Positions 10,576-34,920 of a stretch of DNA of 64,000 bases are shown here, piece after piece (the first letter of the stretch is position 1; each line of letters opens with the position of its first letter). The notes under the pieces are model-generated. The model worked only from the letters and a program-made list of their open reading frames with translations. It did no database searches and was not told the origin of the DNA. This DNA comes from Shimia sagamensis (GTDB lineage: Bacteria > Pseudomonadota > Alphaproteobacteria > Rhodobacterales > Rhodobacteraceae). The position numbers and the translations under genes are program-made. Where the stretch lies: NCBI RefSeq assembly GCF_900182745.1, contig NZ_FXTY01000003.1:248001-312000 (forward strand), given 5' to 3'.

Positions 10576-12258
10576 TTGAACAGATTGTGGCAGGGCAATT
10601 GGCGCACCAAGGCGCGCATTGTGTCGGGGTTGATCCTGTTTTGCTATGTGCTGTGGCACTTCACCAATGTGGGGCTCGGGTTGTTTTCGCTCGAATTGAT
10701 GCATGGTGGACAGGAACTTCTGGAAGAGCTCACTGAGGGACCTTTGGGTGGCGTTGTGCTTTATGGGGCTTTGCTGACCCATATGGGGTTGGCGCTCTAT
10801 CGGTTGGCGCGCAAGCGGACGTTGCGCATGCCTGCCTCGGAAGCGGGGCAGGTGATTTTGGGGCTGACGATCCCGTTGTTGCTGATGACCCATATTGTGC
10901 ACACGCGGGTGGCGGAGAACCGGTTTGAGGTGGAGCCGGAGATGGGTTTCATAGCTGGGCTGATCTGGAACTCACCCAGTGGATGGCAGCAGGCGACCCT
11001 ATTGTTGGTGGTCTGGATTCACGCCTGTATTGGCCTGCATATGTGGCTGCGGGTGCTGCCCGGCTGGCGACGGGTGCTGCCGGTGATGCTGTCGTTGGCG
11101 ACTTTAATACCCGCCTTTGCCCTGGCCGGGTTTCTGGTGCAGGGGCGGTTGCAGAATGCACGGCTGTTTGACCCGGAGGGTGGCGCGGCGTTGCGTGAGA
11201 GTTACGGTTTTCCGACAGCGGAGACCTTTGCGCGGTTGGCGGAGATCAATCGTGGCATGCTGGGAATTTTTGTCGGCCTCGTTGGGGTCACGATGATGGT
11301 GCACTACGGACGGCGCTTTATCGGCGCGCGGCGGGCGGTGCGTATTCGCTATGTCGATGGGCCGGAGATTTCGGGACAGCCGGGCATGACACTTTTGGAG
11401 ATGTCGCGGGTGGCTGGCGTGCCGCATATGGCGCTGTGCGGTGGGCGTGGCCGTTGCACGACATGTCGGGTGATTGTTGAAGAGGGAGGCGGCTTATTAC
11501 ATCCTCCGGAAAAGGCAGAGGCAGACAGTCTGGCGGCCGTCAACGCCCCGCCCAATGCGCGGTTGGCATGTCAGTTGCGGCCCAGAGAGCCAGCCACCGT
11601 TCTGCGGGTGTTTCGCAGTGACGGGCAGCAGGCGCGGGCGCACCAAAGTCTGGGGCAAGAGCGGCGCTTGGCGATCTTGTTTCTGGATATGCGCAGCTTT
11701 ACGGCACGTACCACCGGGCAGCTGCCGTACGATGTGGTGTTTCTGTTGAACCGGTTCTTTGATGCCATTGTGCCGTCGATAACAGGGGCAGGGGGCACGG
11801 TGGATAAGTATCTCGGTGACGGATTGCTGGCGGTGTTTGAGCTGGACAGTGAAGAGGCTTCGGCCAAGGCGGCGATTGAGGCAGCGGCGGGGATCAGTTC
11901 GGCGTTGCAAGTGTTTAACCAGGCCCTGAAGGCGGAGAATGCGCAGCCAGTGGCGATTGGTATGGGGCTGCATCTGGGGGATTTGGTGTTGGGTGAGATT
12001 GGTGCGGCCAATTTGGCGCCACGCACCATTATTGGCGACACGGTGAATGCGGCGAGCCGCCTGGAAGGGCAGACCAAGGCGCTGGGCGTGGAAGTGCTGG
12101 TGTCCGAAGCAGTTCTTGCGGCGGCGGGACATGATCCGGAGGTGCATCATCTCGAGGTGCTGGAGTTGCGTGGTGTGGCGCAGCCAGTGCGGGCTTTGGC
12201 GTTGAAGCGCGCGGCGGCCTTGCCTGCGGTGCTGTCCAAGCAGGCTGAGATGGTGTGA
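10576..12258 (+). CDS. Membrane-anchored adenylate cyclase with [2Fe-2S] ferredoxin domain (CyaC-like)
   Basis: The 560-residue protein has three modules. Residues 1-255 hold about six hydrophobic helices with histidines at helix ends (WHFTNV, LLTHMG, MTHIVHTRV, WIHACIGLH, MVHYGRR), as in succinate-dehydrogenase-type b-heme anchors. Residues 260-345 form a plant-type [2Fe-2S] domain with cysteines at 288, 294, 297 and 332. Residues 360-545 are a class III cyclase catalytic domain: metal aspartates lie in LFLDMRSF and KYLGDG, and the Lys before LGDG together with VNAASRLE favour ATP. The organisation matches CyaC of Sinorhizobium meliloti, a quinone/redox-responsive diheme cyclase. Redox control of cAMP is therefore inferred. 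Translation appears to start at TTG (10576), 6 bases after AAAGGA. No ATG in frame is near. Confidence 0.88.
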   Translation: MNRLWQGNWRTKARIVSGLILFCYVLWHFTNVGLGLFSLELMHGGQELLEELTEGPLGGVVLYGALLTHMGLALYRLARKRTLRMPASEAGQVILGLTIPLLLMTHIVHTRVAENRFEVEPEMGFIAGLIWNSPSGWQQATLLLVVWIHACIGLHMWLRVLPGWRRVLPVMLSLATLIPAFALAGFLVQGRLQNARLFDPEGGAALRESYGFPTAETFARLAEINRGMLGIFVGLVGVTMMVHYGRRFIGARRAVRIRYVDGPEISGQPGMTLLEMSRVAGVPHMALCGGRGRCTTCRVIVEEGGGLLHPPEKAEADSLAAVNAPPNARLACQLRPREPATVLRVFRSDGQQARAHQSLGQERRLAILFLDMRSFTARTTGQLPYDVVFLLNRFFDAIVPSITGAGGTVDKYLGDGLLAVFELDSEEASAKAAIEAAAGISSALQVFNQALKAENAQPVAIGMGLHLGDLVLGEIGAANLAPRTIIGDTVNAASRLEGQTKALGVEVLVSEAVLAAAGHDPEVHHLEVLELRGVAQPVRALALKRAAALPAVLSKQAEMV

Positions 12259-12345
12259 TGTCGCGCTGCGTTGCAGCATTGCAACGGCAGCATGTTTGCT
12301 ATGCAAATGCCAAATAGGGCTTTGAGATTTCACCAAATCACCCTA

Positions 12346-12365
12346 TGTGTTCACGCGTGAACACA
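12346..12365. promoter_or_regulatory. Perfect 20-bp palindrome, candidate operator
   Basis: TGTGTTCACGCGTGAACACA is its own reverse complement over all 20 bases. It ends 16 bases before the ATG of the MarR-sulfurylase fusion gene, where a repressor would block transcription. The fused protein itself carries a winged helix, so autoregulation is the simplest reading. I found no second copy in the window, only a partial, probably chance, match inside the coding region at about 41390. Confidence 0.6.
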
Positions 12366-12381
12366 CTTTGAGTCGTTTGTA

Positions 12382-14457
12382 ATGTCGTTTCAGACCGCCA
12401 AACCCACATCAGATGAGGAAGACGTGCTCTTCCGCCTTCTGCGCCAGCTTGATCAGGCGCCGGACGCATCTCAGCGCGCCACTGCGGCGGCTGTCGGGAT
12501 TTCTTTGGGGCGTCTGAATGCGCAACTGCGTGCTGCGGCAGAAGCCGGGTTGATTACTATTAGTGATCGCGCAGGCCCGGACAAACGACAGAGGTTTGCC
12601 TATTCGCTCACCCGGCGTGGTGCAGTGGAGAAAGTGCGGCTCACCGATCAATTCCTCGCCCGCAAGCTCGCAGACTACAACGCGCTGCACGCGGAACTGA
12701 CAGGCTCGGCAAGCGGCCTGGTCCCTATCAAACACAGGACACATCCAATGCAAAACAACCTGGCTCCTATTCCTGAGCTCTATGTTTCTTACGAGAGCGC
12801 TCAGAAACTGAAAACTGAAGCGGCTGATCTGGTCAGCTGGGATCTGACACCGCGTCAGATCTGCGATCTTGAGCTGTTGATGAACGGTGGTTTCAACCCA
12901 CTCAAGGGCTTCCTGACCGAGGAAGACTACACCGGTGTGGTGGAAAACATGCGTCTGGCAGACGGCTCGCTGTGGCCAATGCCCATCAACCTGGATGTGT
13001 CCGAAGAGTTCGCGGCCGACCTACAAGACGGCCAGGACATCGCGCTGCGCGACCAAGAGGGTGTGATCCTCGCAACCATGACTGTGACCGACAACTTTGT
13101 ACCAAACAAAGCGCGCGAAGCGGAAATGGTGTTTGGTGCAGATGACGATGCGCACCCTGCTGTGAACTACCTGCACAACCAAGCGGGCAAAGTGTACCTC
13201 GGCGGTCCGGTGACTGGCATTCAACAACCGGTGCACTATGATTTCCGTGCCCGTCGCGACACACCAAATGAGCTGCGCGCCTACTTCCGCAAAATGGGCT
13301 GGCGCAAAGTGGTTGCGTTCCAAACCCGCAACCCGCTGCACCGCGCGCACCAGGAACTGACCTTCCGCGCCGCAAAAGAAGCGCAGGCCAACCTGCTGAT
13401 CCACCCGGTTGTAGGTTTGACCAAGCCAGGTGACGTGGACCACTTCACCCGCGTGCGTTGCTATGAAGCTGTGTTAGACAAGTATCCTCAGTCGACCACC
13501 TCTATGTCATTGCTGAACCTCGCCATGCGTATGGCAGGTCCACGCGAAGCGGTTTGGCACGGTCTGATCCGCGCCAACCACGGCTGCACCCACTTCATCG
13601 TTGGCCGTGACCACGCTGGCCCCGGCAAAAATTCTGCAGGCGAAGACTTCTACGGCCCGTATGACGCACAGGAATTGTTCCGTGCGAACGAAGAAGAAAT
13701 CGGCATCACTATGGTCGACTTCAAACACATGGTTTGGGTGCAAGAGCGCGCGCAGTATGAGCCAATGGATGAAATTCAGGACAAAGACGACGTCACCATC
13801 CTGAACATTTCCGGCACCGAGCTGCGCCGCCGTTTGGCTGAAGGTTTGGAAATTCCTGAGTGGTTCTCCTTCCCAGAAGTTGTGAAAGAGCTGCGCAAAA
13901 CCCGTCCACCACGGGCACAGCAGGGTTTCACCGTGTTCTTCACAGGTTTCTCCGGCTCCGGTAAATCCACCATTGCAAACGCGCTGATGGTCAAGCTGAT
14001 GGAAATGGGTGGCCGCCCTGTGACTCTGCTGGATGGCGACATTGTGCGGAAGAACCTGTCCTCCGAGCTGGGTTTCTCCAAAGAGCACCGTGATCTGAAC
14101 ATTCGTCGTATTGGCTATGTGGCGTCCGAGATCACCAAAAACGGTGGTATCGCCATCTGTGCGCCGATCGCGCCTTATGCCACCACCCGTCGCGCGGTGC
14201 GTGAAGACGTTGAAGCCTTTGGTGCCTTTGTTGAAGTGCACGTTGCGACCTCGATTGACGAATGTGAACGCCGCGACCGCAAAGGCCTCTACAAGCTGGC
14301 GCGCGAAGGCAAGATCAAAGAGTTTACCGGTATTTCTGACCCATACGACGTGCCGGCCAACCCTGAGCTGAGCGTGGAAACCGAAGGTGCGGACGTGGAC
14401 AACTGTGCCCACCAGGTGATCCTGAAGCTGGAAAGCCTGGGTTTGATCTCCGGCTAA
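12382..14457 (+). CDS. Bifunctional ATP sulfurylase/APS kinase with N-terminal EPS-type MarR winged helix
   Basis: The 691-residue reading frame has three parts. Residues 1-115 match the EPS-associated MarR family (QRATAAAVGISLGRLNAQL, then FAYSLTRRGAVEKVRLTDQF). Residues 123-515 are ATP sulfurylase, with QTRNPLHRAH at 314-323 and IVGRDHAGPG. Residues 523-690 are APS kinase, with Walker A GFSGSGKST and DGDIVRKNLSSELGFS. Together the enzymes convert sulfate to APS and then PAPS, the sulfate donor for sulfotransferases or reductive assimilation. The usual protein begins at the internal Met (12748), which has its own AGGA 8 bases upstream, so a second shorter product is possible. No stop or frameshift separates the modules. 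A palindrome lies just upstream. Confidence 0.9.
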   Translation: MSFQTAKPTSDEEDVLFRLLRQLDQAPDASQRATAAAVGISLGRLNAQLRAAAEAGLITISDRAGPDKRQRFAYSLTRRGAVEKVRLTDQFLARKLADYNALHAELTGSASGLVPIKHRTHPMQNNLAPIPELYVSYESAQKLKTEAADLVSWDLTPRQICDLELLMNGGFNPLKGFLTEEDYTGVVENMRLADGSLWPMPINLDVSEEFAADLQDGQDIALRDQEGVILATMTVTDNFVPNKAREAEMVFGADDDAHPAVNYLHNQAGKVYLGGPVTGIQQPVHYDFRARRDTPNELRAYFRKMGWRKVVAFQTRNPLHRAHQELTFRAAKEAQANLLIHPVVGLTKPGDVDHFTRVRCYEAVLDKYPQSTTSMSLLNLAMRMAGPREAVWHGLIRANHGCTHFIVGRDHAGPGKNSAGEDFYGPYDAQELFRANEEEIGITMVDFKHMVWVQERAQYEPMDEIQDKDDVTILNISGTELRRRLAEGLEIPEWFSFPEVVKELRKTRPPRAQQGFTVFFTGFSGSGKSTIANALMVKLMEMGGRPVTLLDGDIVRKNLSSELGFSKEHRDLNIRRIGYVASEITKNGGIAICAPIAPYATTRRAVREDVEAFGAFVEVHVATSIDECERRDRKGLYKLAREGKIKEFTGISDPYDVPANPELSVETEGADVDNCAHQVILKLESLGLISG

Positions 14458-33082: not shown

Positions 33083-33156
33083 GAATTTGTGTGCCTGCTA
33101 ACTTTTTGTTTGCCATAATTGGCGATGCTTGCGGTGGTTTCAGCAAAGGACTCACC

Positions 33157-34920
33157 ATGCGGCAGAATTCGCCAAACGTTTCGAAGACCCAAGCAATGGA
33201 TCTTGGTGTGATCCAATCGCTTTATGATAAAGGTGAGTTTCGCAAAGTTGTGTTTCGTGCGCAAAAGGCCCTAAAGATACGCCCGGGTCATGTGGGTTTG
33301 CACGCGCTGGCTGGGTTTTCGGCGCAGCAATTGGGCGATGATGGGATCGCCGAGACTCTGCTGTTCAAGGCCGCGCAGCTAGCGCAAGAGGAGGGAAATA
33401 CCTCCCTTGAGTTGCCGTTAGGGCTTGTGCAGGCAGGGCGCCATGCGCTGGCCGTGCCGCTTTTTGTTGCGTGCCTGAAAGAAACACCAGAACACGCAGC
33501 GGCTCTCAATGGTCTTGGTCGGTCCTTGCTTGCACTGGGTGAGGTGGAAAACGCGATTGTTCTGCTTGGCGATGCGCTTAAACATGGTGCCGATCAGCCG
33601 AGATACGCAGCTGATCTTGGCGCCGCGTTTGAAGCCTCGGGCCAGCCGGTTTTGGCGTTGGAGTGTTATGAAATTGCGAGAAAACTGGCCCCCAAGCTGG
33701 GCCGTTTTACGCGTTCTGCGAAGGTGATGTACGGCCTGGGGCAGTTTGGTAAAGCGGTTGAGTGTTTGGAAGAAGGGCTTGCTCTTTGGCCGGATGATCC
33801 TGCGCTGTTGAGCAATTATGCGTCGGTCCTAAATGCGCTCGGGCGCCGCGCCGACGCCTTGACGCAGTGGCAAAAGGTGCTGGAGGCACACCCTTCCTAC
33901 AGCATTGCCTATTCGAACTTTGCCAACAGTCAGAAGCCGTCCTTGATTGAGGGGTTTGAGGATCGGATTGACGCCCAATTGAAGCGCAACTCCGCCAAAA
34001 CCGATGTGCTCAAGTTTCGCTATGCCAAAGTTGCCGTGCTTGAAGAGCGCGGTGACTATGAGGTGGCCTATCGCAATTTGTTGACCGCAAATGCGCTTCG
34101 ATTTGAAGAAGCCGGTTTTGATATCGAGGCAGAGGCGCGTCTGTTTGATCAAATTAAGCAGCAGTTTGAGGATCAGCCCGAGCTTGAGCTTGCTGTCGGA
34201 GAATCCGAGGCCACACCGATCTTTATTCTTGGCATGCCGCGGGCTGGGTCGTCTTTGACGGAAACCATTATTGGCCGGCATTCTGAGGTCGAACAAAAAG
34301 GTGAATTGGATTACCTTGCATTGCTGGTCAATCAGCTGGGGCTGCTCGGCAACCCATTTGACAGCGCGCAAGCCAACTTGTTTCGGCAAACTTATTTGTC
34401 CCGTCTGACCCAAACCGGCGGAGGCGCTTTCATCACCGACAAAATGCCACAAAACTTTCGTCTGATTGGGCATATCGCGACGGCTATGCCCATGGCGCGA
34501 ATCGTGCATGTGCACCGCGATCCCAAAGCCTGTTGCTGGTCCAATTTCCGTCATTTCTTTGCCAGCGACAGCCTTGGCTTTACCAACGATGTTGACTGTC
34601 TGATCCGCTACTATGACATGTATTGTGACATGATGAGGTTCTGGTCTGAGCGGTTTCCTGGGCGGATTATTGATGTCAATTATGAGAACTTAGTTGCGGA
34701 TCCAGGAGCGCAGATTCCCGTTTTAATTCAATCACTTGGCTTGGAGTGGCAGGAAGAATGCCTTGCGCCGCAAGACAGTGCCACAGTGGTGCGCACAGCC
34801 TCTCAGGATCAGGTGCGTCAGAAAATCTACAAGGGCAGCGCCCAAGGTTGGCGCAAGTATGAAGCGCAAGCTGGTAAATGGCTTGACCGCCTCCCATCAC
34901 ATCAGCCAATTGGCGGGTAA
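33157..34920 (+). CDS. TPR-containing sulfotransferase family protein
   Basis: The 587-residue protein has an N-terminal array of about seven tetratricopeptide units (residues 15-290) and a C-terminal sulfotransferase domain. The PAPS phosphosulfate loop is ILGMPRAGSSL at about residues 355-365. The 3'-phosphate site region contains IVHVHRDPKACCWSN. The family transfers sulfate from PAPS to carbohydrates or proteins, and TPR fusions are common in marine alphaproteobacteria. The ATG at 33157 follows AAAGGACTCACC; a GTG at 33091 would add an unlikely N-terminus. It separates the phosphatase and infA genes. The substrate is unknown. Confidence 0.88.
   Translation: MRQNSPNVSKTQAMDLGVIQSLYDKGEFRKVVFRAQKALKIRPGHVGLHALAGFSAQQLGDDGIAETLLFKAAQLAQEEGNTSLELPLGLVQAGRHALAVPLFVACLKETPEHAAALNGLGRSLLALGEVENAIVLLGDALKHGADQPRYAADLGAAFEASGQPVLALECYEIARKLAPKLGRFTRSAKVMYGLGQFGKAVECLEEGLALWPDDPALLSNYASVLNALGRRADALTQWQKVLEAHPSYSIAYSNFANSQKPSLIEGFEDRIDAQLKRNSAKTDVLKFRYAKVAVLEERGDYEVAYRNLLTANALRFEEAGFDIEAEARLFDQIKQQFEDQPELELAVGESEATPIFILGMPRAGSSLTETIIGRHSEVEQKGELDYLALLVNQLGLLGNPFDSAQANLFRQTYLSRLTQTGGGAFITDKMPQNFRLIGHIATAMPMARIVHVHRDPKACCWSNFRHFFASDSLGFTNDVDCLIRYYDMYCDMMRFWSERFPGRIIDVNYENLVADPGAQIPVLIQSLGLEWQEECLAPQDSATVVRTASQDQVRQKIYKGSAQGWRKYEAQAGKWLDRLPSHQPIGG

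Follow-up and report, generated by a model that had tools for sequence, protein, structure and literature searches.

The gene at positions 12382-14457 on the forward strand of the window, by which we mean the whole 64,000-nucleotide stretch of the Shimia sagamensis genome analyzed here, appears to encode a sulfate-activating enzyme that also regulates its own promoter and is produced in two versions, a reading to which we assign a probability of roughly three in four. Sulfate activation is the entry step to cysteine synthesis and to sulfation, and to our knowledge little has been established about its control in most alphaproteobacteria. This one gene is predicted to combine a regulator with both its operator and its target.

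The frame is open throughout its 691 codons and, on the evidence of profile matches and its conservation, joins a MarR_EPS-like winged helix to an ATP sulfurylase and an APS kinase. Specifically, residues 121-690 matched the profile for bifunctional ATP sulfurylase/APS kinase proteins (NF004040) with 1035.8 bits, above the cut-off of 669, and comprised an ATP sulfurylase part with PUA_2 and ATP-sulfurylase domains (12748-13899, forward strand, from the domain search) and an APS kinase part (13918-14451, forward strand, from profile and domain searches). Catalytic motifs of both enzymes, QTRNPLHRAH and GFSGSGKS, were present in the translation, and correspond to what we take to be the patterns of ATP sulfurylases (QxRN/HxxH) and of the APS kinase P-loop (GxxGxGKS). 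Profiles, a structural model, and Foldseek together placed a winged-helix domain with a long C-terminal helix at residues 12-106 (12415-12699, forward strand). The initial annotation had described this as a MarR domain of the EPS type: it exceeded the cut-off of Pfam HTH_24, both within the whole protein and as the N-terminal part alone, and matched NCBIfam TIGR04176 (MarR_EPS) over the same residues, but the scores of the latter, 80.6 bits with the whole protein and 85.0 with the N-terminal part alone, lie slightly below the curated cut-off of 88 bits, and we therefore refer to the domain as MarR_EPS-like. A model of residues 1-118 (pLDDT 86.8) adopted a winged-helix fold of three helices, two strands, and a long helix, with the recognition helix predicted at residues 42-54, and of the 50 Foldseek matches listed for it most were members of the MarR family (best E-value 1.3e-4, TM-scores of about 0.5-0.6). 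For the full-length protein, AlphaFold gave a poor prediction (mean pLDDT 51.3) from which contacts between domains could not be read, and it was left unused. A linker of 14 codons (12706-12747, forward strand) separates the two parts, and its length did not vary among the 76 GTDB loci that parsed. Conservation across the relatives described below shows that a winged helix of the MarR_EPS type and a complete ATP sulfurylase/APS kinase form a single fused reading frame.

With the N-terminal 122 residues as query, strong matches (E ≤ 2.5e-36) were recovered from 58 of 295 genomes of the family Rhodobacteraceae, 57 with an open frame of at least 690 aa and one, in G032, truncated where its contig ends. 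Weaker matches began at E 1.1e-24, had frames of 80-393 aa, and represented stand-alone genes or unrelated sequences. The enzyme part was detected in 277 of the 295 genomes at E 0.001, some of the weak matches likely being other proteins with an APS kinase domain. The same architecture was present in 111 of the 390 genomes in a draw from the order Rhodobacterales (counted by hand), as well as in 2 of 385 genomes of the class draw and 8 of 299 of the phylum draw, and all fused matches found, including those of the class and phylum draws, belonged to the one family. The uninterrupted fused frame reported in the initial annotation therefore stands, as a conserved feature. Among named GTDB genomes, 417 stretches matched and 336 encoded a relative; we retained the 80 best of these. 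In the N-terminal part, the six closest named records were 94-99% identical, five of them from Shimia and the sixth from a Rhodobacteraceae bacterium, and cultured marine genera with the fusion comprised Shimia, Leisingera, Phaeobacter, Roseovarius, and others. Of the 80 loci, 76 parsed as the same fusion; the remaining four (L125, L149, L150, L152, with YAELTG) were missed by the parsing pattern and are outside the counts over 76 GTDB loci and over 121 distinct genes, and their N-termini showed the same junction. The set of 121 distinct fused genes was obtained by removing twelve that were identical to others in the first 1500 nt. In the 57 family loci fetched, a set that lies apart from the truncated G032, the two parts and the junction between them were free of stops over the length covered by each locus, 29 of the loci ending before the gene does. 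A tblastn row from G237 crossed a TAG; the open frame there has 695 codons, and the TAG is therefore the gene's own end.

Selection has kept a second start inside this frame, as conservation at the junction shows. The initial annotation had noted an AGGA 8 bases upstream of Met 12748; this Shine-Dalgarno sequence lies at 12736-12739 (forward strand) and precedes the internal start by exactly 8 nt in 120 of the 121 distinct fused genes, the lone exception (L015) having CGGA. The codon for Arg119 was AGG in 119 of 120 cases, while no other column among the 42 conserved Arg columns compared had AGG more than 11 times, and its codon bias of 5.10 bits ranked at the top of 432 conserved columns (next highest 1.57, 99th percentile 0.90). 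Moreover, a Shine-Dalgarno word preceded 112 of the 113 junction ATGs, as opposed to 50 of 1836 other in-frame ATGs for which any of three such words was counted, and AGGA at the 8-nt spacing preceded none of those 1836. The first start, at 12382, has only a weak Shine-Dalgarno-like sequence before it, GAG at 12370-12372 (forward strand), which the sequence and the conservation profile place inside a conserved TTTGAGTCG. An arrangement in which the fusion is the sole product, and the junction AGGA with its rare AGG slows translation between the domains, would account for part of this pattern, since AGG is rare outside the site: the 57 family loci use it for 19 of 2848 other Arg codons, and the 76 GTDB loci for 25 of 3901. 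Such a pause, however, requires none of three further regularities: the base after the Arg119 codon was A in 121 of 121 genes despite a varying residue (T, N, S, I, or M), the spacing to the start was fixed, and the start codon was ATG in 113 genes and GTG in 8 but never another Val codon, even though GTC is nearly as common as GTG in the fused genes. These argue against the pause, which we regard as improbable. Most likely, judging by codon and spacing conservation, the fused gene gives rise to two proteins, one of 691 aa and a predicted second product of 569 aa, the plain ATP sulfurylase/APS kinase, from the internal ATG (12748-14457, forward strand). Initiation at two sites of a single mRNA, listed in the initial annotation as an alternative to a functional fusion, is hence strongly supported alongside it. 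Sequence alone thus suffices to detect selection for an internal start across a family, and this suggests that annotation may be missing a second product in other fused genes as well.

Upstream of the gene, a perfect palindrome that the initial annotation did not mention, TGTGTTCACGCGTGAACACA, with the core GTTCA-N4-TGAAC, occupies positions 12346-12365 and is very probably, given its conservation, the operator of the fused MarR_EPS-like domain. A search of the 120 nt upstream recovered the pattern GTTC-N6-GAAC in 56 of the 57 family loci and in all 76 GTDB loci that parsed; among the 121 distinct fused genes, 120 have it just upstream, and in the sole exception the contig is cut inside the site and a half site remains. 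Unfused enzyme genes had this pattern in 0 of 32 cases within 600 nt upstream. Among 26 stand-alone MarR_EPS genes, a sample of 20 chosen family regions and six from the class draw, the strict form GTTC-N5-7-GAAC was present in 12, and a relaxed palindrome allowing one transition per half in 24, compared to 1 of 32 controls. The palindrome, or a related form of it, accompanies fused and most stand-alone MarR_EPS domains and is absent from the 32 unfused genes, and is therefore tied to the domain and not to the enzyme.

In the conservation profile, a CTTT (12320-12323) that starts 29 nt upstream of the palindrome core and an AT (12345-12346) mark a putative promoter core at 12320-12349 (forward strand). 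The distance from the end of the operator to the start was 16-20 nt in 89 of 120 fused genes, and this short distance, with the position of the CTTT, suggests that the operator overlaps the promoter core, in what would be the -10/+1 region. The winged helix might alternatively activate its own gene, considering that the site was recognized through its conservation and that 13 of 57 fused genes have a second copy upstream. Yet the common site is close to the start and would overlap the promoter core, which is the position of a repressor, and activation is accordingly an unlikely reading. The second GTTC-N6-GAAC is located 29-49 nt further upstream (L018, L025, L027, L037, L039, L046, L049, L052, L053, L056, L059, L060, L061) and could reflect cooperative binding.

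The initial annotation had proposed that the fusion might act on other genes, perhaps those for sulfated polysaccharide, and this reading depends on where else the palindrome occurs. The domain family takes its name from EPS clusters, and presumably its members are expected near them; moreover, a stand-alone MarR_EPS gene with a similar palindrome was also present in 7 of the 58 fused genomes. On the other hand, the predicted operator precedes the fused gene itself, the 20-bp form of the palindrome occurred once in the genome, and of the five exact core sites (versus two for a reversed control pattern) only that at 12346-12365 was outside reading frames, the other four lying inside frames of at least 232 aa. 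Three one-mismatch sites also lay in reading frames, one of them only in a frame of 125 aa that is maybe not a gene. Across 72 genomes, namely 51 of the 58 fused ones (including that of Shimia sagamensis) and 21 unfused, 37 of 62 near-matches in the fused genomes were at the gene's own promoter (counted from the listing), and the 25 elsewhere were no denser than the 13 in the 21 unfused genomes; the reversed control pattern gave 12 and 3 matches in the same fused and unfused genomes, respectively. Neither the genome nor this survey therefore held an excess of sites pointing to a regulon beyond the gene's own promoter. The window's genome had no second MarR_EPS match, and as to an EPS-cluster neighborhood, trxB lies in the same stretch as the fusion and no EPS gene or other polysaccharide-like gene was among ten ORFs chosen between 27.5 and 49 kb of the window, though one of the ten encodes a sulfotransferase domain. 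We consider control of other genes highly unlikely, and these counts indicate that the predicted operator serves mainly one target, the gene's own promoter. Control of the sulfite reductase/CysH operon was a candidate that we rejected: in its 11-kb stretch no such operator was found upstream of these genes, and the lone GTTC-N6-GAAC lay downstream, inside a 153-aa frame. In the seven fused genomes with an additional stand-alone MarR_EPS gene (G142, G161, G165, G190, G202, G218, G237), the similarity of the palindromes makes cross-binding of the two regulators possible.

The MarR part is under purifying selection by the measure of substitution ratios, with dN/dS of 0.07-0.10 compared to about 0.05 for the enzyme in four relatives (a fifth row, L124, was misaligned and dropped). 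Unfused relatives lack the MarR part altogether. Fused and unfused genes share one neighborhood, judging from trxB, which matched in the fetched stretch of 103 of the 107 fused loci examined (29 short fused loci being outside this number) and of 32 of 32 unfused ones. A quick tree built from 57 fused and 32 unfused enzymes (89 in total), in which many branches were weak, did not group the fused enzymes in one clade; it involved 18 changes between the fused and unfused states, at least four of which were forced by starred branches, and a single clade of fused enzymes was rejected on this same weakly resolved tree by the AU test (p-AU 0.0138). Together, the tree and the common neighborhood are compatible with an old fusion that was lost several times, or with exchange by recombination. 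Unfused enzymes do begin near the residue equivalent to the internal start, as would be expected if the upstream frame were meaningless or a stop had been lost through mutation or assembly error, with the short enzyme alone mattering, but the conservation of the domain over many genera at these dN/dS values, the finding that no stop separates the two parts in those fused loci that were read, and the operator that accompanies the fusion lead us to reject a chance open frame, an assembly error, or the loss of a stop codon between adjacent genes raised by the initial annotation, and leave accidental read-through a negligible probability.

For the autoregulated enzyme in two versions, we propose the following course. 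The 691-aa form would bind the palindrome as a winged-helix dimer and repress transcription, repression being the expected outcome if, as seems likely, the palindrome and the promoter core overlap. Translation from the internal start would give the plain 569-aa enzyme, probably the more abundant form because the internal Shine-Dalgarno is the stronger one. The enzyme part is similar to fungal and bacterial ATP sulfurylases of known structure (relatives 1i2d, 1m8p, 2gks, 3cr8), which form oligomers; by this analogy, long and short chains likely assemble into mixed enzyme oligomers. Repression would then depend on what fraction of the chains can bind DNA and on which ligand state the enzyme is in (sulfate, APS, or PAPS), with the net effect that the supply of the sulfate-activating enzyme would follow demand in a closed loop. 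More tentatively, the protein might be a self-titrating sensor, in which long and short chains co-assemble and the ligand state spaces two winged helices for operator binding. Were this true, the ratio of the two starts would fix the threshold, and one gene would be enzyme, sensor, repressor, and its own anti-repressor.

Regarding the ligands, one protein in the genome exceeded the PAPS_reduct cut-off, a CysH with the NCBIfam name phosphoadenylyl-sulfate reductase that fell under the APS_reductase cut-off and had cysteine pairs that we take to be typical of APS reductases. Additionally, there were four matches to one sulfotransferase family. Based on these features, APS and PAPS may both have consumers in the genome. 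A possible user of PAPS is encoded at 33091-34920 of the window, a protein with TPR repeats and a sulfotransferase domain (132.7 bits).

By sequence and model, the fusion places an enzyme and a DNA-binding domain in one chain, the combination seen in trigger enzymes of the DNA-binding type. Known members of this kind include PutA, BirA, and NadR; in the portions of the two sources considered here, PutA is described as binding only the spacer between putA itself and putP, while BirA and NadR each have several targets (PMC8249747, PMC6978683). The fusion resembles all three in being a metabolic enzyme that is predicted to double as a transcription factor, and PutA, as portrayed there, is the nearest likeness, having a single site beside its own gene, although that of the fusion is known from its sequence. 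It differs from these three, as so described, in its MarR_EPS-like winged helix, in the pathway of sulfate activation, and in the predicted retention of an internal start for an enzyme devoid of the DNA-binding part. Pairs of N-terminal proteoforms from two in-frame starts are reported from ribosome profiling of Salmonella in the part of PMC11005335 considered here, and likewise constitute two proteins from one frame; in the present case conservation is the basis for predicting the pair, and what the shorter form would lack is an entire DNA-binding domain. We found no description of a MarR-ATP sulfurylase/APS kinase fusion in the openly licensed PMC literature, among the titles and abstract beginnings of the matches listed. 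A term search of the proteogenomic study of Ruegeria pomeroyi (PMC3305630) found the enzyme not named in the text covered, and the portion of a proteomic study of Roseobacter litoralis covered here names a sulfate adenylyltransferase subunit 1/adenylylsulfate kinase, which is another type of protein (PMC4103551).

Compared to other NF004040 proteins, the fusion contains the complete enzyme part, and adds the N-terminal winged helix, the linker, and its own predicted operator. With the TIGR04176 regulators it shares the winged helix and long C-terminal helix region and a related upstream palindrome; the regulators are stand-alone proteins of 105-154 aa (26 read), while in the fusion the domain belongs to a longer chain, and the fused copies differ from the stand-alone ones at the fixed positions R63, R69, H103, and L106.

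The gene upstream of the fusion (10576-12258 of the window) encodes 2Fe-2S ferredoxin and adenylate/guanylate cyclase domains in one chain, with an N-terminus that is hydrophobic by eye. Matches to it were present in the fetched stretches of 42 of the 80 fused loci from GTDB and 1 of the 27 from the family genomes, as well as in 8 of the 32 unfused loci.

Finally, the stand-alone MarR_EPS genes (L225-L244, L197-L202) had a feature of their own, GCGGTAGC/GCGGCAGC, located 9-58 nt before the start in 25 of 26 compared to 1 of 32 controls. We take this word to resemble the RfaH recruitment element (ops), which suggests that MarR_EPS operons are also under an antiterminator of the RfaH/NusG type.
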